A stretch of DNA of 37,096 nt from Candidatus Gastranaerophilales bacterium. Its GTDB lineage: Bacteria; Cyanobacteriota; Vampirovibrionia; Gastranaerophilales; JANQFW01. The DNA is taken from contig JANQHM010000268.1 in the NCBI GenBank assembly GCA_028282645.1, positions 1 through 37,096 of the forward strand, in the 5' to 3' direction. The position numbers and the translations under genes were made by a program. Position 1 is the stretch's first letter; the number at the start of each line of letters is the position of its first letter. Positions 8,075 through 34,515 of the stretch are shown here, piece by piece. Below the pieces are notes generated by a model. The model was given only the letters and a program-made list of their open reading frames with translations. It did not search any database and was not told where the DNA came from.

Positions 8075-8270
8075 AAATATATAATGTAAAAATTAACTAA
8101 ATCAGATTTATTAGCAAGGTAAAATTTGGTTTGAAACAGAAGAAGGTAAGGGAACGACTTTTTACTTCGCGTTACCGTTTTAAAACTATTCCACCATTAC
8201 AGACAATAGGGGCATAAAAATTTTATTGTTTTTTTTAAAAATCGGATTGGTTAATACGGAAAAAAACAAT

Positions 8271-8732
8271 ATGCAAGAAGCTAATCTCTACATAAATAAA
8301 ATAATTGAAAAATATAACTACTCACACACTGAGCTTTTAATCATTTTAGAAGAAATTGTAGCTGAAAATGGATATCTTACGGAAGCGATGGTAAGAAATA
8401 TTGCAAAACAATTATCAATGAGTCCTAATGAAGTTTATGCCGTGGCTACATTTTATTCATTTATCAGTACAAAGCCTACAGGTAAGTATATTATTAGAAT
8501 TTGTAAAACTATAAGCTGTCAGCTCGCAGGCAAAAATGAAATTATAAAAGCACTTGAGCAGGAATTAAGTATCAAAATGGGGTCAATCACAGATGATAAG
8601 TTATTTACGCTGAAAACAACCGATTGTATTGGTATGTGTGACAAAGGACCTTCTATGTTAATTAATGATGAAGTTTATCATCATTTAAGTCCTGAAAAGG
8701 CTGTCTCTATAATTAGAGAGTACAAAAATTAG
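8271..8732 (+). CDS. NuoE-like [2Fe-2S] subunit of NAD-linked [FeFe]-hydrogenase (HndA/HydC type)
   Basis: VYAVATFYSFISTKPTGKYIIRICKTISCQLAG ... TTDCIGMCDKGPSMLIND; ATG 8271 preferred over 8226. Confidence 0.85.
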   Translation: MQEANLYINKIIEKYNYSHTELLIILEEIVAENGYLTEAMVRNIAKQLSMSPNEVYAVATFYSFISTKPTGKYIIRICKTISCQLAGKNEIIKALEQELSIKMGSITDDKLFTLKTTDCIGMCDKGPSMLINDEVYHHLSPEKAVSIIREYKN

Positions 8733-8826
8733 GTGATGGTAATCACCTTTCTTAAGTCATCGCTGTAAACTTTTGATATAACTTAAGTTTGCTTGTAACT
8801 ATCAGTACTCTTGATTGACCATTACC
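8732..8826 (+). repeat. Family 1 dispersed repeat, copy B
   Basis: ggtgatggtaatcacctttcttaagtcatcgctgtaaacttttgatataacttaagtttgcttgtaactatcagtactcttgattgaccattacc. Confidence 0.9.
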
Positions 8827-8851
8827 AAAAATTATAATAGGGCAAGTTAAA

Positions 8852-10021
8852 ATGCAAAGAAAATTTATACTTTCTAATGATTACGTATTTTGGGAAGCCT
8901 TGAACAAGGTTTTGTCGGAACCGTCACAAGATTTTATTGAATTGATAAAAAAATCAGGTCTTCGAGGTAGAGGTGGCGCTGGATTTCCAACCGGTCTTAA
9001 GCTGGAATTAGTATCTAAAAATGGCTTAGGTGAAAAAAAATATATTGTTTGCAATGCTGACGAGGGTGAACCTGGGTCTTTTAAGGACAGGGAACTTTTA
9101 TTTAATCATACTGAGAAATTTATAGAAGGAATGATAGCGTCCGGCTACGCTGTCGGTGCATCCATGGGGTTTATTTATTTAAGAGCAGAATATAAGTGGA
9201 TGCTAAAGAATCTATTAAACAAAATTAAACAAATAAGGGAAAAAAATTATTTAGGTAAAAATATTCTGAATAAAAATTTTGATTTTGATATAGAAATCAG
9301 ATGTAATGCAGGAGCATATATATGTGGAGAAGAAAGCTCTTTAATTGAATCTATGGAAGGAAAAAGAGGTGAACCTAGAAATAGGCCGCCTTTTCCTGTT
9401 GAGCATGGTTATATTAATTTTCCAACACTGGTTGATAACGTGGAAACATTTGCTAATTTGCCATATATTGTTAAATATGGTGATGAAGAATTTAAAAAAT
9501 ACGGTACACAAAAATCACCGGGGACTAAATTGTTTAGTATTTCCGGAGATTGCCCAAAACCCGGTATTTATGAGTTTGATTTAGGGTGTACTTTATTAGA
9601 TTTATTAAAGGCATGCGAAGCTACAGATGTTAGAGCAGTTCAGGTCGGGGGGGCTGCCGGTGTCACTGTTGCACCAAAAGATTTTAAGAAATCTATTTGT
9701 TATTCGGAATTATCACCTGAGGGCTCAATTATTATATTTAATAAGTCTCGCAATATGTTTGAGGTTCTTAAAAATTTTACTGATTTTTTTAAAGAGGAAA
9801 GTTGCGGGCTTTGTACCCCATGCAGAGAAGGTGTGCCTAAGATTGCCGAAGCTGTAGATAAGATTATCAAAAAGGAAAGCATTCCTGATAGTCATATAGA
9901 AGTTCTGATGGAGCTTGCAGATGTTATGAAAGTTGCTTCTAAGTGCGGTTTAGGGCAGACTGCTTCTAATCCTTTTGTTTATATTTATAAAAATTTTGCT
10001 GATAATCATCACCCTTTTTAA
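8852..10021 (+). CDS. NuoF-like NAD/FMN/[4Fe-4S] subunit of hydrogenase (HndC/HydB type), short C-terminus
   Basis: SGLRGRGGAGFPTGLK, CNADEGEPGSFKDRELL, GAYICGEESSLIESMEGKRGEPRNRPPFP, ESCGLCTPCREG. Confidence 0.92.
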   Translation: MQRKFILSNDYVFWEALNKVLSEPSQDFIELIKKSGLRGRGGAGFPTGLKLELVSKNGLGEKKYIVCNADEGEPGSFKDRELLFNHTEKFIEGMIASGYAVGASMGFIYLRAEYKWMLKNLLNKIKQIREKNYLGKNILNKNFDFDIEIRCNAGAYICGEESSLIESMEGKRGEPRNRPPFPVEHGYINFPTLVDNVETFANLPYIVKYGDEEFKKYGTQKSPGTKLFSISGDCPKPGIYEFDLGCTLLDLLKACEATDVRAVQVGGAAGVTVAPKDFKKSICYSELSPEGSIIIFNKSRNMFEVLKNFTDFFKEESCGLCTPCREGVPKIAEAVDKIIKKESIPDSHIEVLMELADVMKVASKCGLGQTASNPFVYIYKNFADNHHPF

Positions 10022-10090
10022 ATCATCACTTTAAGCTTTTGATATAAATTAAATTTACTTGTAAGCATAAGTACTAAATAGAGTATCACC
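9998..10090 (+). repeat. Family 1 dispersed repeat, copy C; overlaps the 3' end of the NuoF-like CDS
   Basis: gctgataatcatcacccttttt...aatcatcactttaagcttttgatataaattaaatttacttgtaagcataagtact...gtatcacc. Confidence 0.8.
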
Positions 10091-10151
10091 AAAAATATTA
10101 AAGAAGATATTTAAATAAAAAAATAAAAGCACTGAAGTCGGGGGATTTTAA

Positions 10152-11942
10152 ATGAATGACAAACACAAACCCATATTAAAAGTAACCATTAATGGCAAAG
10201 AATATGAAACAAAAGAAAATGAAACAATACTGGAATTAGCTAAAAGAAATGATATATACATCCCGACTTTATGTTATCATCCTGATCTTTGTTTATCTGG
10301 AGTGTGCAGGCTTTGTTTGGTAGAAGTTGGAGGATGTAGGGCATTGCAAGCTTCTTGTAGTACTCCTGTACTCAATGGCATGATTATTCAAACAGAAACA
10401 GAGCTGGTTAATAAATCAAGAAGAATGGTGCTTGAGCTTATATTGGCAAATCATTATACAGGAAAAAGCAAATGTGATAAGACTTTAAGTTGTGAATTGC
10501 AAGAGCTTTTTATCAAATATAAGATAGAAGAAAGCCGATTTGGCAGGCCAAAAGAAAAAAGATATAAAATATTGGATAATACAGCCGTAATTAGAGATAA
10601 TGACAAATGCATAAAGTGCCGTAGATGTGTGGATGCCTGTGAATGTATGCAATGCGTTGAAGCTATTAAGCCTATGTATAGAAGTAATGAGCTATCTATA
10701 GGCTCTGTATTTGATGTCGACTTGGATAAGACAGGTTGCGTTTTGTGTGGTCAATGTATAAATTATTGTCCTACTACGGCATTAGTAGAAAAAGAATCTA
10801 TTAAAGAAGTTTATGAAGCTTTAAATGATCCTGCTAAACATGTGGTCGTACAAACAGCTCCGTCAATGCGTGCTACTCTGGCTGAAGAGTTTAATATTCC
10901 TGCGGGAAGAAGTTCTACTAAAAAGATGACAACAGCCCTTAGAAAAATAGGTTTTGATGCTATTTTTGATACTAATTTTTCTGCTGATTTAACTATAATC
11001 GAAGAATCCGCCGAGCTTTTAAGCAGAATAAAAAAGAAATTTTTAAATAAAGAAGAATCCTCTTTGCCTTTGTTTACATCTTGTTCGCCCGGGTGGATTA
11101 ATTATATTGAATATTTTTATCCTGAATTGCTTTCAAATGTATCTACATGTAAGTCTCCCCAGCAAATGTTTGGGGCTATAGCTAAAACTTATTATGCTAA
11201 TAAAATTAATATTCATCCGAAAGATATTATTTGTGTTGCAGTTATGCCTTGCACTGCCAAAAAATTTGAGGCAAATAGGCCCGAAATGAGAGACAGCGGT
11301 TACAAAGATGTTGATTATGTATTAACTATAAGAGAATTTGCAAAGATGATTCGGCGGTCTAATATAAACTTATTTGAGCTACCGGATAGTGATTATGATG
11401 CTCCTATGGGTATTTCAAGCGGAGCCGGCTTAATCTTCGGGGTTACAGGAGGAGTAATGGAAGCTGCTATTAGAACTGCTTATGAGGTTGTTACCAAAAG
11501 AGAAGTACCGTTTAAAAATCTTGATATATGCCCTGTTAGAGGAATGGAAGGAGTAAGAGAGGCATCTTTAATTATAAAAAATCCTATAGATGAGTGGAAA
11601 TTTCTTGACGGTTTTGAATTAAAAGTTGCAGTGGCTCATGAATTAAGAAACGCAAAAAAACTGCTTGATAGTATCAAAGCAAATGAGTCTGATTATCATT
11701 TTGTCGAAGTTATGGCATGTCCGGGCGGTTGCCTTGGTGGGGGCGGACAGCCTAAGCCGACAAACGTGGAAATTCGCAAAAAGCGTGCAAGGGTTATTTA
11801 TGAAGAGGACCGGGCTTTACCCTACAGAAAATCTCACGAAAATCCGGCTATTATAGAGCTTTATAAAGATTTTATCGGTAAGCCTTTAGGAGAAAAAGCA
11901 CATAAGCTTTTGCATACTTATTATACAGTTAGGAGAGATTAG
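10152..11942 (+). CDS. hydA: NAD(P)-linked [FeFe]-hydrogenase catalytic subunit (HndD/HydA type)
   Basis: N-terminal [2Fe-2S] region (CRLCLVEVGG), two [4Fe-4S] motifs (CIKCRRCVDAC, CVLCGQCINYCP), H-cluster motifs TSCSPGW, MPCTAKKFE, EVMACPGGCLGGGGQP. Confidence 0.95.
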   Translation: MNDKHKPILKVTINGKEYETKENETILELAKRNDIYIPTLCYHPDLCLSGVCRLCLVEVGGCRALQASCSTPVLNGMIIQTETELVNKSRRMVLELILANHYTGKSKCDKTLSCELQELFIKYKIEESRFGRPKEKRYKILDNTAVIRDNDKCIKCRRCVDACECMQCVEAIKPMYRSNELSIGSVFDVDLDKTGCVLCGQCINYCPTTALVEKESIKEVYEALNDPAKHVVVQTAPSMRATLAEEFNIPAGRSSTKKMTTALRKIGFDAIFDTNFSADLTIIEESAELLSRIKKKFLNKEESSLPLFTSCSPGWINYIEYFYPELLSNVSTCKSPQQMFGAIAKTYYANKINIHPKDIICVAVMPCTAKKFEANRPEMRDSGYKDVDYVLTIREFAKMIRRSNINLFELPDSDYDAPMGISSGAGLIFGVTGGVMEAAIRTAYEVVTKREVPFKNLDICPVRGMEGVREASLIIKNPIDEWKFLDGFELKVAVAHELRNAKKLLDSIKANESDYHFVEVMACPGGCLGGGGQPKPTNVEIRKKRARVIYEEDRALPYRKSHENPAIIELYKDFIGKPLGEKAHKLLHTYYTVRRD

Positions 11943-20985: not shown

Positions 20986-21180
20986 AATTAAACCTCCTTT
21001 AATCCAGACTTAATAATACCTACATTAAATTGCATGGTATACTAACACCATTATTTTATATTTAGCTAAAATAGTAAAGTAAATCAATAGCTCAAAAAAT
21101 TTTTTATAAAAAATTTTTTTAAATATAGTTCTATTTATCTTACAATACAATTGATTGAGCCAAAGTTAAGGAATATTAAC

Positions 21181-22404
21181 ATGCAAAAAACACCCAGAGG
21201 CATGAGGCTTCATATTGGTATTTTGGGAAAACGAAATGCCGGAAAATCAAGTTTATTAAATAAATTAACTAATCAAGATGTTTCAATCGTCTCAGAAACA
21301 GCAGGCACTACCACTGATCCTGTGGAAAAAGCATTGGAACTTTTACCTTTAGGGCCTGTATTATTTGTAGACACTGCCGGCATTGATGATGAAGGTGCTG
21401 TGGGAGAAATGCGTATTCAGAAAACTCTTGGCATTATTGATAGAACTGATCTGGCGATAATTGTCTGTGACTCGGAAGGGTGGGATGATTTTGAATTAAA
21501 ACTTTATAAAATTTTTAAAGAAAGAAATATCCCCGTAATCTGTGTAATAAATAAAATAGATATAAATTCACCAAGTGAATCAGTTATAAATAAAATAAAA
21601 GAACTCGAAGCCGATCCTGTTTGCATTTCTGCGATGACCGGTAAAGGTGTGGACGACTTAAAACAAAAAATAATTAAATCTGCACCGGAAGAATTTATAA
21701 TGCCGCCAGCAATTGTCTCTGATTTGGTTCCTGCTGGTGAATTGGCTTTGCTTGTAGTTCCAATAGACCTGGAAGCACCAAAAGGTAGGCTGATTTTGCC
21801 TCAAGTCCAAACCATAAGAGATCTTCTGGATAATGATTCAATGGTTATGGTCGTAAAGGAAAGAGAACTAAGAGATGCCTTAAACAGGTTAAACAGGCCA
21901 CCTTATTTGGTTGTAACAGATTCTCAGGCTTTCTTGAAAGTATCTGCGGATGTGCCAGGGGATGTTAAGCTAACCTCTTTTTCTATTTTATTTGCACGCT
22001 TAAAAGGTGATTTAAAAGAATTTGTAAAGGGCGCGGCTACGATAGATGATCTTGAATCAGATGACAAGGTTTTAGTTTGTGAATCTTGCACCCATCATGC
22101 TATCGGGGATGACATTGGCAGAGTGAAAATTCCAAGATGGCTGAACCAATACGTAGGAGGCAAGCTGGATTTTGAATTTTATGCCGGGCATGATTTTCCT
22201 GAAGATTTAAAAGAAAAAAATTATAAGCTTATTATTCACTGTGGGGCATGTATGACAAACAGAAGGGAAATCCTGACCAGAATAATGAAAGCAAATGCAG
22301 CAGGCATACCTATTACTAACTACGGATTAACTATTGCTTACTCCTTTGGCATATTTAAAAGGGCTTTAGAGCCGTTTCCTTTTGCGTTGGAGGTGTTAAG
22401 CTAA
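21181..22404 (+). CDS. hydF: [FeFe]-hydrogenase maturation GTPase HydF
   Basis: GKRNAGKSSLLNKLT, DTAGIDDEG; CTHHAIGDDIGR ... HCGACMTNR cluster motif; ATG 21181 after AAGGA. Confidence 0.92.
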   Translation: MQKTPRGMRLHIGILGKRNAGKSSLLNKLTNQDVSIVSETAGTTTDPVEKALELLPLGPVLFVDTAGIDDEGAVGEMRIQKTLGIIDRTDLAIIVCDSEGWDDFELKLYKIFKERNIPVICVINKIDINSPSESVINKIKELEADPVCISAMTGKGVDDLKQKIIKSAPEEFIMPPAIVSDLVPAGELALLVVPIDLEAPKGRLILPQVQTIRDLLDNDSMVMVVKERELRDALNRLNRPPYLVVTDSQAFLKVSADVPGDVKLTSFSILFARLKGDLKEFVKGAATIDDLESDDKVLVCESCTHHAIGDDIGRVKIPRWLNQYVGGKLDFEFYAGHDFPEDLKEKNYKLIIHCGACMTNRREILTRIMKANAAGIPITNYGLTIAYSFGIFKRALEPFPFALEVLS

Positions 22405-22554: not shown

Positions 22555-23673
22555 TTATAAAGGAAATAAAAACCTATAAATCGCAACAATAAATAAATTT
22601 AAAAGAGATAACGGTAATAAAAATTTCCAACTGAAATTCATTAATTGATCAGTTCTTAGCCTTGGCAAGGTTGCTCTTATCCACATTATCACAAAGATAA
22701 TAAAATAAGTTTTTAGCATAAGCCAGGCTATTTGTTCGATATTTACTAATAAATTTAAAATTATTTTATTAGTAATAAAATTTTTAAAAATTAATAAACA
22801 TAAATAATCATTAAAAGGTGATAAATAGCCACCAAAAAACAATACAGAAATCAAAACACATATTATAAATAAAGCTGCATACTCCGCAAGAAAGAATAAT
22901 GCAAACTTCATGCCGGAATACTCTGTATTGTAGCCGCTGACCAGCTCGCTTTCAGCTTCAGGCAAATCAAAAGGTATCCTGTTTATCTCTGCTAAAGAGC
23001 ATATAAAAAATACAACAAGTCCCAGTGCAGCAGGCCACATATTCCAGCTAAAAATATTCCAGTTTAAAAATATATTATTTACAATACCACCGGATTGCCA
23101 TTGTACAATTGTAGGTAAATTCATTGATTCTGCTAAAACGCATATACCTACGGCAGCAAGTACAAGCGGAATCTCGTAACTAATAGCCTGAGCCACGCCT
23201 CTGATACCGCCTAACAATGAATATTTATTGTTGCTTGCCCAGCCTGACAATACAATTCCAATAGTGGATATTGAGGTAATCGCCAGTATTAAAAATAATC
23301 CTGCAGCAGCATTTATTGCAAGCAGATTTTCGCTGAACGGCACCAGGCCGTAAACGACCATAACCGGTGCAAAAAATACAATAGGCGCAATTGTAAATAA
23401 TATTTTATTTGTATTAGTAGCCATTATATCTTCTTTAAATAGCAGTTTTATTGCATCTGCAAAGGTTTGAAAGAAGCCGTTAGGCCCGACTCTGTTAGGT
23501 CCTTTTCTTACAGTAAATAAAGCAAGTAATTTTCTCTCCAGCAAAACAAGAAAAATAACAACAATAACTAAAGTTGCAGCAATACCAATAAACAGAAACA
23601 TAGGCCAGCTAATTTGAGCAAATACTGTTGGTATACTAAGGTGTTCAAATATTTTTATGTATAACTCGTACAT
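22555..23673 (-). CDS. nuoH: NADH-quinone oxidoreductase subunit H (NdhA-like)
   Basis: LERKLLALFTVRKGPNRVGPNGFFQTFADAIKLLFKED, RIPFDLPEAESELVSGYNTEYSGMKFALFFLAEY. Confidence 0.93.
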   Translation of the reverse strand: MYELYIKIFEHLSIPTVFAQISWPMFLFIGIAATLVIVVIFLVLLERKLLALFTVRKGPNRVGPNGFFQTFADAIKLLFKEDIMATNTNKILFTIAPIVFFAPVMVVYGLVPFSENLLAINAAAGLFLILAITSISTIGIVLSGWASNNKYSLLGGIRGVAQAISYEIPLVLAAVGICVLAESMNLPTIVQWQSGGIVNNIFLNWNIFSWNMWPAALGLVVFFICSLAEINRIPFDLPEAESELVSGYNTEYSGMKFALFFLAEYAALFIICVLISVLFFGGYLSPFNDYLCLLIFKNFITNKIILNLLVNIEQIAWLMLKTYFIIFVIMWIRATLPRLRTDQLMNFSWKFLLPLSLLNLFIVAIYRFLFPL

Positions 23674-23687
23674 GTTTTTGACTCCGA

Positions 23688-24872
23688 TTACCTGTCTACT
23701 TCAGGAAGTACAACGTCAAGGCTGCCAAATATAGCCATAAGATCCGAGTAAAGACTGCCCTTAGCAAGTTCCGGCAATACTTGAACATTAGAAAACGAAG
23801 GAGTTCTCCACCTTACTCTATACGGATTTTTAGTGCCGTCACTTACTACATAACAGCTTGTTATTCCTCTGGGTGCTTCTATCAGTGATGTTGCTTCACC
23901 TTTTGGAGGCTTAAAATTAACAAGGTTTATTTTTTTTTCTGTTAAAAGAGTATCAAATCCGCAATATTTACAATTTTCTTCACTACAACCGCAGTTAGGT
24001 CTTTTTATAAGTAACTTATCAGGCGTGCCTCCAGGTAGTTTTTCAATTGCCTGAAGCACTATATCAATAGACTGCCTCATTTCATCAAGCCTAATCAAAT
24101 ATCTGTCATAGCAGTCCCCGTTTTGCCTTGTGCATACGTCAAAACTAAACTCATTATAAACAGAATACCCGGGTTCTTTTCGCAAGTCTGTTTCAACACC
24201 TGAGGCTCTTAAATTTGGTCCTGTTATTCCGTAATCCAGCGCAACTTTTTTTGTTAAAATGCCTATACCTTTAGTTCTTTCCAAAAATATAGGGTTTTTA
24301 GTTATTATAGCCTCATATTCATTGAATAATACGGGTAGCTCATCGCATAACTTTTTGACTTTATTAAGCCAATTAGGGGGAAAATCCTGCTTAACTCCGC
24401 CAAAAGAATAAAAATTATATAATAATCTTGCACCTGCCAGCTCTTCAAAAAGGCCAAGCAGTTTTTCTCTGTCTCTAAATGTATAAAACAATGGAGATGT
24501 AGCACCAAGGTCCAGTAAAAATGTCCCCAACCAAAGCAAGTGAGAGCTTATTCTGTTAAGCTCCATTGTTATAACTCGAATATACTCGGCTCGTCTTGGT
24601 ACTTTAATTTTTGCTATTGATTCCACTGCATAACAAAACGAAGCAAGATTAAAGAAGCTCGATAAATAATCCACCCTGTCAACCATCGTTAGATACTGAT
24701 AATAAGTTCTTGATTCAGCGAGCTTTTCGATTCCACGATGTAAATACCCGATGACAGGCTCTAAATTTTTTATTACTTCGCCTTCCAGCTCAATAATAAG
24801 CCTTAATACTCCGTGAGTACCGGGATGCTGAGGGCCGACGTTTATTTTCATTTGTTTTGCTAGAGTTTGCAT
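23688..24872 (-). CDS. nuoD: NADH-quinone oxidoreductase subunit D (NdhH-like) with an unusual Cys-rich insertion
   Basis: NVGPQHPGTHGVLRL, GYLHRGIEKLAE, VDYLSSFFN, TGPNLRASGVETDLRK; cluster at 23961-23993. Confidence 0.93.
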   Translation of the reverse strand: MQTLAKQMKINVGPQHPGTHGVLRLIIELEGEVIKNLEPVIGYLHRGIEKLAESRTYYQYLTMVDRVDYLSSFFNLASFCYAVESIAKIKVPRRAEYIRVITMELNRISSHLLWLGTFLLDLGATSPLFYTFRDREKLLGLFEELAGARLLYNFYSFGGVKQDFPPNWLNKVKKLCDELPVLFNEYEAIITKNPIFLERTKGIGILTKKVALDYGITGPNLRASGVETDLRKEPGYSVYNEFSFDVCTRQNGDCYDRYLIRLDEMRQSIDIVLQAIEKLPGGTPDKLLIKRPNCGCSEENCKYCGFDTLLTEKKINLVNFKPPKGEATSLIEAPRGITSCYVVSDGTKNPYRVRWRTPSFSNVQVLPELAKGSLYSDLMAIFGSLDVVLPEVDR

Positions 24873-24883
24873 CTATCCACCTC

Positions 24884-25369
24884 TTACCGTTGATTCCAGA
24901 TTAAACGCTCATCGTCTTGAACATAGTCTTTTCTTAGAGGGTGTCCCTGCCAATTGTCTGTAAGTAAAATTCTTTTTAAGTTAGGATGGTTTTTAAATTT
25001 TATCCCCATAAGGTCATAATTTTCTCTTTCGTGCCAGTTTGCAGCGGAATAAATACCTGCAATGCTTTCTATTGTAGGATTTTCCTTTGACAAGCTTGCT
25101 TTAATAATTATTTGATTTTTAAAAACCGAGTCAAGCAAGTGATAAGAAACCTCAAAATGCTCTGGAAAGTCTACACTGCTTACGGACAATAAAATATCAA
25201 ACTTAACATCGCTTTCTCTCTTGAAAAATTCAATAATGTTACGAATATGATTCGCGTTAACAATTATAATTGAGGTTTCATTAGTATCAGATTTTTGCCA
25301 TTCACAATTTATATTTAAGTTTTTAAGCTTTTTAAGAGTTTGATATTTTATTACGCTTATTTTTTCCAT
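24884..25369 (-). CDS. nuoC: NADH-quinone oxidoreductase subunit C (NdhJ-like)
   Basis: SIAGIYSAANWHERENYDLMGIKFKNHPNLKRILLTDNWQGHPLRKDY. Confidence 0.92.
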   Translation of the reverse strand: MEKISVIKYQTLKKLKNLNINCEWQKSDTNETSIIIVNANHIRNIIEFFKRESDVKFDILLSVSSVDFPEHFEVSYHLLDSVFKNQIIIKASLSKENPTIESIAGIYSAANWHERENYDLMGIKFKNHPNLKRILLTDNWQGHPLRKDYVQDDERLIWNQR

Positions 25370-25374
25370 ACTTG

Positions 25375-25971
25375 CTATACGCTCACTTCTTCTTTATAAC
25401 TAGCATTCTGTACACCCCAATGATAAATTTTCATACCCGCTAAGGGTAAAGCCAGCTCTGAGTCTTCACTATATTTTACTTTAGGCTTATGAGCTTCCAG
25501 ATATTGCTTGCGCTCCAGCAGTGATTCTGTTTTTATTTTCTTTTGTAATTTTATGATAGCATCTAAAAGAGCTTCCGGTCTTGGCGGACATCCTGGCAAG
25601 TATACATCAACAGGTATTAATCTGTCTACACCCCTTACTACAGAGTACGAATCATTTTCAAACATGCCGCCGGTAACAGTGCAAGCACCCATTGCAAGCA
25701 CGTATTTAGGCTCAGGCATTTGTTCGTATAGCTGCACTACTGCGGGTGCCATTTTATGAGTTATTGTACCTGCTGTTATCATTAAATCAGCTTGTCTTGG
25801 CGTAGCTCTGAATACTTCTGAGCCAAATCGTGCAATATCAAAATTTGAGGCACTGGTTGACATCATTTCTATGGCGCAGCAAGATGTTGCAAAGGTCATT
25901 GGCCATACTGAATTTGACCTTGCCCAATTATATACAAAATCTACTGCTGTAAGAATTATTTTTATGTTCAT
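25375..25971 (-). CDS. nuoB: NADH-quinone oxidoreductase subunit B (NdhK-like)
   Basis: [61 protein letters not shown]. Confidence 0.95.
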
Positions 25972-26017: not shown

Positions 26018-26380
26018 TTACTTCCACTTTAAAAAATTTTTTTTCCATATATAAACTAAGCCTAAAACCAGTATTAAAATAAAAATAATAGCCTCCACCA
26101 GTGCAAACAAGCCTAATTTATTATAGGTTACAGCCCATGGAAAAAGAAAAATAGCTTCAATATCAAATATTATAAACATTAAAGCATACATATAATATTT
26201 GATATCAAATTGAAGTCTTGAGTCCCCAAATGTTTTCATTCCGCATTCGTAGGTGGAATTTTTATTTTTGCCTGGTGCTTTTGGGTGTACAACCCACGAT
26301 GTTATAATTGCAGCTGTTGCAAAAGCCAGAGAAAACAATATAAATGCAAATAAAATTCCGTATCCTTGAATATAAAGCAT
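26018..26380 (-). CDS. nuoA: NADH-quinone oxidoreductase subunit A (NdhC-like)
   Basis: YECGMKTFGDSRLQFDIKYYMYALMFIIFDIEAIFLFPWAV. Confidence 0.93.
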   Translation of the reverse strand: MLYIQGYGILFAFILFSLAFATAAIITSWVVHPKAPGKNKNSTYECGMKTFGDSRLQFDIKYYMYALMFIIFDIEAIFLFPWAVTYNKLGLFALVEAIIFILILVLGLVYIWKKNFLKWK

Positions 26381-31091: not shown

Positions 31092-31256
31092 AAATTATAT
31101 TTTATTTAAAAATTTAACTGGCGTATGAGTTATATTAATTTCTTCAACTTTGTTTTGTAACAAATTATATACTTTTACAAATTAAAGACTAAATATTCCT
31201 TAAAATTTATCGATTAATAACTTAGTGAGTTATTAATCATGGGGTTTTTGCATATT

Positions 31257-33128
31257 ATGAAAACAAATAAAAAAGCACAACAGTTGGTAGAGTTTGCATT
31301 GATTTTACCGATTATAATAATTGTTTTAGTTGTTATAGTAGAATTTGGTTATATTATAAATGCAAGAATATCGCTGTCAGAGTCAGTTAAGCTATCAATG
31401 ATAAAAGTAAATCAACTATATTCACAGCCCGGAGATGATACGACTAAACAAGCTGCTATTATGACCAGTATAGAAGACGATCTTAAAACATATTTTGATG
31501 ATCAAGGACTCCCTTATTCAGATTCACTGGCAGTTACTATAGAAAGAATACCTAATAGCTTAACTTCAATTATTAGAGTAAATTACGTATATAAGCCCTT
31601 TTTTTCGTTAGCAAATTTTTTCGGCTCGGAGATAATACCTACAGAATATACTTTTACATCAACTCAAGTAGTTAATGATGTGCTTTTACAAGCAAATAAC
31701 CTTGATTCCGCATTATCAACAACAGATCTTTCTTCATTTGGCAAAACGGCAACTAATTTTGACGGAAGGAACAGCATTCTAAAAAATCAAGAATTTGTAA
31801 TAGATGCAATGAATACATTGGACTTAAGAAAAAGTGTTGTTTTTTTAGTGGGTATTGATACTAATGATTATACTTATGCTAGGCTTATAAACTGGTATGG
31901 AGAAGACTTACTGCCCGCAAATCTCCTGGTTAATATTCAAACCGGAACTCTTTTTGTAAAGTCTCCATATTATTCAGTAGCATTATTTGATACACAAATA
32001 CCTTATATTTGGGTACTCACATCATTAGGATTTTCTCAAGCAATATACAGCAAAATAGATACAAACCCCGATATCCCGGAGAGAAGAGTTATGTTTCAAG
32101 ATGAAGACATTACTTTTAATTTGGGGATACCCTGGTGCAGTCAGCAATCTTGCGTAAGCTGCGGTGACTGTGCTGATGATATGACTGATATAAATTTAGA
32201 TAATCTTAATAAGCGCGGAATTAGTATGCTCCTTGATTCTAACAACCCCTCTTATGGAGCAATGGAGAAAATTAAAGTAGTAACCGGTAACACCAGGCCG
32301 GAAACAATTTTCAATCACAATTTTATAAGATCTAATTATGTTTTAAGGTTGTATGTTCCAAATGCAACAAAACCTGTTGATGCTGATAACGGATTTAAAT
32401 TTGATTTTGAAATTGATGCTACAGGGGTTTTAATGGCCGGTGGAGGAACACCTGTTGATATAGTTGATGTTATTATGGACAATGATAATGATAATATACC
32501 AAATGCCTGGGATAATGACCCCGAATATATGGATGTTGATGGTAACGGTATAATTGACGGTAATGAGACTGTTAATATAGATCCTGCAATGGTAGAATAC
32601 GGTTTGCCTGAACATGCAGATGCTTCAACACTTGCGATAGGTGCAGTTGTTGCGTCTGCAACTCCTGATTGTAGTGGTACTCCTTCTCAATATACAGTTA
32701 CGGCAAATGAGCCCGCAGCTGATCCTTTAACCGGTGCTGCTCCTTATGAAATATATTATACAGGCCCTTTTGATTTTGCCGGAATGCCCAATACCATTAA
32801 TCCTGCAAATACATATATACCGCCTACCCAAAAAGTGGCATTAGTAGATATATCATTTTCAAAAGTCGGATCTGAAATGGTAGCAGGTGTATGTACTGCC
32901 GTAAATAAAAATATCGGCCCGTTTAAATATATTACTTATGATAATGCCGGAGTTCTTTTTGTAATCAGACGTTTTGCAACCTGGGATACTGATCCTGCTA
33001 TAGCAATTACTCAAAAAGTTGAATTCATAAATGGAGTGGAAGCTGCGGGAACAATAGATCTTGATGATTCTCCGGAATTAAAAGTTTTAGAAGCCAGCTT
33101 ATTTAGTGCTACTAACAAAGTACAATAA
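31257..33128 (+). CDS. TadE-like pseudopilin-type protein with long C-terminal region containing a D-rich Ca-binding-like segment
   Basis: AQQLVEFALILPIIIIVLVVIVEFGYIINARISLSESV; later DNDNDNIPNAWDNDPEYMDVDGNGIIDGNE; ATG 31257 preferred. Confidence 0.7.
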   Translation: MKTNKKAQQLVEFALILPIIIIVLVVIVEFGYIINARISLSESVKLSMIKVNQLYSQPGDDTTKQAAIMTSIEDDLKTYFDDQGLPYSDSLAVTIERIPNSLTSIIRVNYVYKPFFSLANFFGSEIIPTEYTFTSTQVVNDVLLQANNLDSALSTTDLSSFGKTATNFDGRNSILKNQEFVIDAMNTLDLRKSVVFLVGIDTNDYTYARLINWYGEDLLPANLLVNIQTGTLFVKSPYYSVALFDTQIPYIWVLTSLGFSQAIYSKIDTNPDIPERRVMFQDEDITFNLGIPWCSQQSCVSCGDCADDMTDINLDNLNKRGISMLLDSNNPSYGAMEKIKVVTGNTRPETIFNHNFIRSNYVLRLYVPNATKPVDADNGFKFDFEIDATGVLMAGGGTPVDIVDVIMDNDNDNIPNAWDNDPEYMDVDGNGIIDGNETVNIDPAMVEYGLPEHADASTLAIGAVVASATPDCSGTPSQYTVTANEPAADPLTGAAPYEIYYTGPFDFAGMPNTINPANTYIPPTQKVALVDISFSKVGSEMVAGVCTAVNKNIGPFKYITYDNAGVLFVIRRFATWDTDPAIAITQKVEFINGVEAAGTIDLDDSPELKVLEASLFSATNKVQ

Positions 33129-33147
33129 CTTAATAGGATAAAAGAAA

Positions 33148-34515
33148 ATGCAATATATAAAAAATAATAAAAGAAAAGGTGTATCATTACTTATTCTTGC
33201 ATTGGGCATTGTTGCACTAATGGGATTTGCCAGCTTTGTTGCAGACCTGGGTATGATAATGAATGCCAGGAATGAATTACAAAAGGTTGTAGAGTCCGTT
33301 GCTCTTGTAGGGGCATCAAATTTAGAACCCCAGCAGGATATAGCGGGTAATGTTACTATTGATACCAGTCAGGTTGTAACAGTAATGACAGATACTTATA
33401 ACCAGATGGTAGCTTCTAATCCCATGCTAGCTAATGCTTCAGCACCTACAATAACTTTTAATGCACAGTCAAAAGCTGTTAGAATATTTACAACTTTGGA
33501 TGTGGGAACGTATTTTGCAAAAATTATAGGAATAAATGCCGTTAGAGTTCAAGCACAGGCTGCGGCACTTTCTTCACCTTATTATTTAAATGCAACTTTC
33601 CCTAAGGGATTTAGTCCCGGAAGCATAATAAGAGAAACAAGCGGTGACAGTGATATCAGAAAACCCGTAGGTGATAATGAAAATGTTAATATGCTATTTG
33701 ATCGAGCCTTGAGTGCACCTGATAATAAAGCTTTAACTTTAGGGCCCGGCGGATATTTGACAATGCGTTTTACAATGCCGCTTATGGATGGTATAGGTGC
33801 TGATTTATATATAAGAGAAATAGGTAATCTTGAAGGCTATTATCTATTTGCAGGAAATGATGCAGACCCTGATAACCCTTATGTAAATGAAGTAATGACC
33901 GGATCCGGTATTAATTGGGTTAATATCAGCTGTACGGGTATTCCTGTAGATATTGATCCAACAGGTAGTCCTATTGGCTCTTATCTTGCTAATGTCAATT
34001 ATTCATCAGGAACAACTAAGGAAGCTAAATTTTATGGGAGCGGTATCTTTGATATCGGTAAAACCTGTACTGATTCCACTGGAAATATTTTATATGACGG
34101 TAATGTAAAAGGTGTAAAATATTTAAAAATCATTGATGATAATACTATTGACGGCTTTTTAAGAGAAGATATAACCAAGCCGGTTGTATTGATAGGAGAA
34201 AATTCATCAATAACTGCCGGAGTTGATATTGATGCAGTTGCTATTTTACATCATACAAGGTTAATAAGTACAATTGAATTTAATAAAGACACTGATAACG
34301 ATAATTTAATAGATTTATTGGAGACAATTATAGGTACAAATCCTTCTGCGGCAGATAGTGATGCTGACGGTATAAACGATTCTCTTGAATATTCAGGATG
34401 GTACGGGGCTTCACAATCTATTATTGATGCAGGAAGCCAACAAGCACAATTTACTAATCCGCTTGATGCTGAAACTGATGGACCTGGTATAATATATATA
34501 GATAATCCAAGCTAG
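33148..34515 (+). CDS. TadG-like (Flp pilus assembly TadE/G family) protein with C-terminal thrombospondin-3-like D-rich repeats
   Basis: KRKGVSLLILALGIVALMGFASFVADLGMIMNARNELQKVVESVALVGAS; DTDNDNLIDLLETIIGTNPSAADSDADGINDSLE. Confidence 0.75.
   Translation: MQYIKNNKRKGVSLLILALGIVALMGFASFVADLGMIMNARNELQKVVESVALVGASNLEPQQDIAGNVTIDTSQVVTVMTDTYNQMVASNPMLANASAPTITFNAQSKAVRIFTTLDVGTYFAKIIGINAVRVQAQAAALSSPYYLNATFPKGFSPGSIIRETSGDSDIRKPVGDNENVNMLFDRALSAPDNKALTLGPGGYLTMRFTMPLMDGIGADLYIREIGNLEGYYLFAGNDADPDNPYVNEVMTGSGINWVNISCTGIPVDIDPTGSPIGSYLANVNYSSGTTKEAKFYGSGIFDIGKTCTDSTGNILYDGNVKGVKYLKIIDDNTIDGFLREDITKPVVLIGENSSITAGVDIDAVAILHHTRLISTIEFNKDTDNDNLIDLLETIIGTNPSAADSDADGINDSLEYSGWYGASQSIIDAGSQQAQFTNPLDAETDGPGIIYIDNPS

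Follow-up and report, generated by a model that had tools for sequence, protein, structure and literature searches.

A conserved four-cysteine loop, probably a structural metal site, in the NuoD subunit of a complex I from Gastranaerophilales

The 49-kDa subunit of complex I (NuoD/NdhH) normally binds no Fe–S cluster. What, then, is the meaning of four closely spaced cysteines in the NuoD of a Candidatus Gastranaerophilales bacterium, a member of the class that forms the non-photosynthetic sister group of cyanobacteria? The window analyzed here, a stretch of 37,096 nucleotides, contains the nuoD/ndhH gene at positions 23688–24872 of the minus strand, as an intact reading frame of 394 amino acids. 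A preliminary description of this DNA had located a C-x-C-x4-C-x2-C cluster at 23961–23993, and these coordinates are exact: read on the minus strand, they span C294 (codon 23993–23991), C296 (23987–23985), C301 (23972–23970), and C304 (23963–23961).

The identity of the protein is clear. It matches the Complex1_49kDa family (PF00346; 322 bits), its nearest solved relatives are the NdhH subunits of Thermosynechococcus elongatus and chloroplasts (E-value 1e-112), and its predicted fold is likewise nearest to T. elongatus NdhH (TM 0.89 to 6hum_H, with a pTM of 0.81 for the AlphaFold model of the whole subunit). H20, Y69, and D121 align with H23, Y72, and D124, to which roles in the quinone site of T. 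elongatus NdhH have been assigned (PMC6992706); H23 and D124 also served to check the numbering of the latter protein. The N- and C-terminal CxxC pairs that bind nickel in the large subunit of [NiFe]-hydrogenases are absent from this NuoD, whose C-terminus reads LPEVDR. Outside the cluster, its only cysteines are at positions 80, 176, 247, 254, and 340, and the four-cysteine loop coincides with neither nickel-ligand position.

The gene belongs to a nuo cluster that runs in the order nuoA-B-C-D-H from 26380 down to 22555, all on the minus strand: nuoA (26018–26380; PF00507), nuoB, whose product carries N2 (25375–25971; PF01058), nuoC (24884–25369; PF00329), nuoD, and nuoH (22555–23673; PF00146). 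A second contig of this genome (L098, that is G000:C39) carries nuoI (9561–10040, minus strand), followed in order by nuoJ, K, L, M, and N, which were assigned from open reading frame order and sequence. The subunits present in the genome are thus NuoA–D and NuoH–N. Only two NuoF-like (PF01512) proteins are encoded in this genome, and because both belong to [FeFe]-hydrogenase gene clusters, we conclude that NuoEFG is missing from this NdhH-type enzyme, a complex I of 11 subunits; the lack of nuoE/F/G beside nuoD, remarked on earlier, therefore reflects the absence of an NADH module. Moreover, NdhS and NdhN, which help form the ferredoxin-docking pocket in cyanobacteria (PMC6992706), gave no match in any of the 16 genomes of the class that were searched, including the one studied here, and were found in all of the cyanobacteria searched (3/3).

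The window encodes a HydABC-like trio at 8226–11942 (a NuoE-like thioredoxin-fold [2Fe–2S] protein, a NuoF-like flavoprotein, and an [FeFe]-hydrogenase large subunit) as well as a GTPase similar to the maturation factor HydF at 21151–22404. A second HydABC-like set lies on contig G000:C146 (L099), with a HydB of ~617 amino acids and NuoE-like and NuoG/HydA-like neighbors. In the genomes of family f8 (loci L084–L095), NuoI carries a long low-complexity Ala/Pro/Lys tail past its two 4Fe–4S motifs, which the other families do not have.

We examined the conservation of the four cysteines in an alignment of the NuoD family. A sequencing or assembly artifact, such as a frameshift, or a chance occurrence of cysteines can be discarded with near certainty, given the intact frame and the conservation of the motif in independent genomes, in which the same nuoD is found at identities from 90% (same genus) to 63%. 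The cysteines are indeed conserved within a clade: together with K290, N293, G305, and D307, all four are invariant in the 14 distinct Gastranaerophilales carriers (families f1, f3, and f4 and one f7 genome), across which the spacer positions 295, 297–300, 302, and 303 each accept three to seven different residues and both TGC and TGT are used at every cysteine of the cluster. In family f8, nine NuoDs show, at the same place, an invariant sister form, C-x2-C-x4-C-x2-C-G-G-D. Whether they begin with C-x-C or C-x2-C, the two forms continue with x4-C-x2-C-G-x-D, keep the four putative ligands, and have in common the pattern PGG...L...C.(.)C....C..CG.D.....KK. Among 103 distinct NuoD sequences, 23 contain the motif (one of them with a fifth cysteine, in the spacer), and the other 80 have either no cysteine (74) or a single one (6) in this segment. 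When 382 genomes of the class were scanned with a DNA motif, every match in nuoD fell in a known carrier; the remaining matches lie outside nuoD, at a low rate similar to that of a reversed control pattern.

The presence of either four cysteines or none to one is what a metal site would be expected to show. Because four invariant cysteines in tight spacing are conserved as a unit, with free variation between them, we lean toward the view that they form a metal site in a donor-docking loop, a structural knuckle holding Zn(II) being the likeliest form; metal binding, zinc as the metal, and a stabilizing role are what we infer from the sequence, its conservation, the subunit composition, and the alignments. 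Searches of PDB and Pfam with the loops alone gave no significant match to any metal-binding family. The Pfam matches of the cysteine loops, all sub-threshold, were mainly zinc ribbons and zinc fingers, a similarity that rests on cysteine spacing, and the loop of the window NuoD itself had no zinc-family match, even sub-threshold. In the AlphaFold model, for which the input alignment comprised 14 sequences, 3 of them with the cysteine loop, pLDDT is below 50 over residues 283–313, which makes the ligand geometry unreadable from the model.

The same cysteines might instead act as a thiol/disulfide or metal-responsive switch that modulates donor docking. Such a role would suit a cysteine-rich loop that is exposed beside the docking site and whose carriers span different families of the class, but exactly four invariant cysteines in a tight C-x(1–2)-C-x4-C-x2-C arrangement suit a tetrahedral metal better than one or two disulfides, and no partner regulator is known. 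We give this possibility the least credence among those considered for a genuine cluster.

How the loop is distributed bears on its origin and function. Standard NuoD/NdhH sequences had been described as free of such a cluster, and this is the case for classical NuoDs, cyanobacterial NdhH, and many sister lineages. They had also been described as carrying a MESLIHHF-type segment in this region, which is true of the classical NuoDs of the phylum (L171–L174 and L178; e.g., YQNIEGLINHFKLIFEG) but does not apply to the protein studied here, which is of the NdhH type, with EAKRxxxGxKSEWxxFDYQYIxKK as the counterpart. Since the protein is of the cyanobacterial NdhH type, the cysteine cluster is to be regarded as a variant of the NdhH loop, which in oxygenic cyanobacteria contains no cysteine (KRxxxGxKSEWxxFDYQYIxKK). 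In the other orders of the class, the loops have no cysteine and very different lengths. Within the same order, the loop is cut to a few residues in G005 (family f5), G007 and G012 (f7), G011 (f6), and the f2 genomes. Among the f8 NuoDs, some have an insert without cysteines or no insert at all. Outside Cyanobacteriota, the comparison covered a few loci from Bacillota and archaea and five aligned PDB chains, none of which has the motif.

We mapped the trait on a tree built from the NuoD alignment without the loop columns, on which it takes five changes, versus a mean of about 22 when shuffled, with gains not distinguishable from losses. Judged from this tree, the loop is inherited in clades, yet was gained or lost several times. 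The residues shared around the cysteines hint at a common origin of the C-x-C and C-x2-C forms; two separate gains would also be compatible with the tree. This loop follows the last helix and precedes the EAPRG strand; across the class, it ranges from full deletion to about 55 extra residues, and it varies far more than the remainder of NuoD; most lineages keep KK (or K) in it, followed by a basic residue of the FK/LR type. That lineages have repeatedly lost or replaced the loop while keeping the core subunits fits a structural, exchangeable part, as a zinc knuckle would be.

No other part of NuoD varies as much across the class as this loop, as would also be expected of an interface, and the cluster could stabilize or recruit a partner protein, either a dedicated donor or an accessory subunit, in place of NdhS and NdhN, the accessory subunits of cyanobacteria that the searched genomes of the class lack. 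The genomes G010 and G016, carriers from different families, have etfB and etfA, identified by sequence, directly upstream of nuoA in divergent orientation (L032:478–2325 and L100:586–2401). However, etfBA is not beside nuoA in the window genome or in most carriers, and no neighbor gene of nuo is conserved across carriers, so that a recruited partner seems to us quite improbable.

Where the loop lies in the complex is a further argument, and indeed the reason why these cysteines are of interest. In the ferredoxin-bound enzyme of T. elongatus, Lys315 and Lys321 of NdhH touch ferredoxin, along with Lys86, Lys89, and Lys91 of NdhI (PMC7021789), the docking patch being made of the C-terminal fragment of NdhH and a hairpin of NdhI (PMC6992706). 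In the alignment, the counterparts of the two NdhH lysines in the window NuoD are K314 and K321, which lie 10 and 17 residues past C304 in the segment K313/K314–K321 (KKINLVNFK; 23910–23936, minus strand). All 14 Gastranaerophilales carriers have K313, and 13 of the 14 have K314 and K321, the latter being replaced by an arginine in one. Furthermore, when PDB was searched with a profile of the cysteine loops alone, T. elongatus NdhH ranked first (E-value 7e-4), the alignment covering the loops over their full length and keeping K315/K321 in register. There are thus good grounds in the alignments for considering the four-cysteine loop homologous to the NdhH segment that precedes the ferredoxin-contact lysines, a position that would place it at the electron-input face. 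The preliminary description had suggested an electron-input site; because the loop aligns with the segment leading into K315 and K321, this suggestion is plausible by position, the cluster apparently adjoining lysines known to contact ferredoxin in cyanobacterial NDH-1.

Combining this position with the metal-site reading, we propose that the four cysteines coordinate one metal, most likely Zn(II), which would pin an otherwise floppy loop just upstream of the docking lysines. Once the loop is pinned, K313/K314 and K321 would join the NuoI hairpin in presenting a docking surface for a soluble electron donor, placed next to cluster N6a. The knuckle would thereby stiffen the docking loop in enzymes that have no NADH module, no NdhS, and no NdhN. 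A point against this proposal is that a search for covariation between NuoI and loop presence inside two families yielded no convincing column.

The alternative that deserves the closest attention is that the metal is part of an Fe–S center. The C-x4-C-x2-C spacing, constant in the carriers, also occurs in plant-type [2Fe–2S] ferredoxins, where it separates three of the four cluster ligands, and an extra center, for example of the [2Fe–2S] type, could be the first acceptor of electrons from ferredoxin or another donor and pass them to N6a in NuoI. The location next to the ferredoxin-contact lysines would be suitable: in the cyanobacterial enzyme, the cluster of bound ferredoxin is 9.6 Å from N6a (PMC6992706). 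The enzyme has no NADH module, and the electron supply to such 11-subunit complexes, including their direct donor, has been called an open question (PMC11238625). On the other hand, the loops resemble no Fe–S family, none being found among their Pfam or PDB matches, and cyanobacterial NDH-1 accepts electrons from ferredoxin without any cysteine loop. Moreover, the loop is missing from three genomes of the order (G005, G007, and G012) and from many genomes of f8 and f2, all of which keep the remaining enzyme. Because close relatives drop or replace the loop and keep complex I, we favor a structural metal site and consider an additional Fe–S center unlikely, if worth bearing in mind given its ferredoxin-like spacing and suitable location. 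That the loop would hold a redox-active cluster through which electrons enter and are relayed to N6a, in an enzyme devoid of an NADH module, we regard as less probable again.

Comparison with known systems puts the putative zinc knuckle into perspective. Cyanobacterial and chloroplast NdhH (6hum, 6nbq, and 7eu3) are closest by sequence and fold, likewise work without an NADH module, and share the end-to-end loop alignment and the two ferredoxin-contact lysines. The cyanobacterial loop, KRMLEGAKSEWNGFDYQYIGKK, contains no cysteine cluster, however, and its ferredoxin pocket is supported by NdhS and NdhN, which are missing in the window genome. Classical NuoD, such as Nqo4 of Thermus, is of the same family and core fold but has the MESLIHHF segment, no cysteine there, and an NADH module as a partner. 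The peripheral arm of mitochondrial complex I also holds a small zinc site, in NDUFS6/NUMM, which contacts NDUFS2 and NDUFS8, the equivalents of NuoD and NuoI, respectively (PMC7699753). This protein is, however, a separate subunit with a C-x8-H-x7-C-x2-C motif, whereas the cysteines described here are within NuoD and spaced C-x-C-x4-C-x2-C, and the resemblance is one of analogy rather than of shown homology. Finally, COX5B of cytochrome c oxidase, which the loop profile matched below threshold (E-value 0.36), has a zinc site made of C-x-C and C-x2-C-G in a respiratory complex, but its cysteine pairs are far apart, whereas those of NuoD are separated by four residues, and we claim no homology between the two.

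As far as the open-access literature shows, a four-cysteine loop in this core subunit of complex I is apparently unreported; in particular, the words "cysteine" and "insertion" are absent from the main text of the article on the phylogeny of complex I in Melainabacteria (PMC8235220). The loop would represent a lineage-specific, metal-site-like element at the place where cyanobacterial NDH-1 docks ferredoxin, in a class of non-photosynthetic bacteria. The four cysteines and the natural pairs of close relatives with and without them offer a handle on how such a docking site is built and on whether the core 49-kDa subunit ever gained an extra cofactor.

Elsewhere in the window, downstream of a MutS2-like gene, positions 31239–34515 encode two adjacent large proteins with TadE/TadG-like, that is pilus-assembly-like, N-termini.
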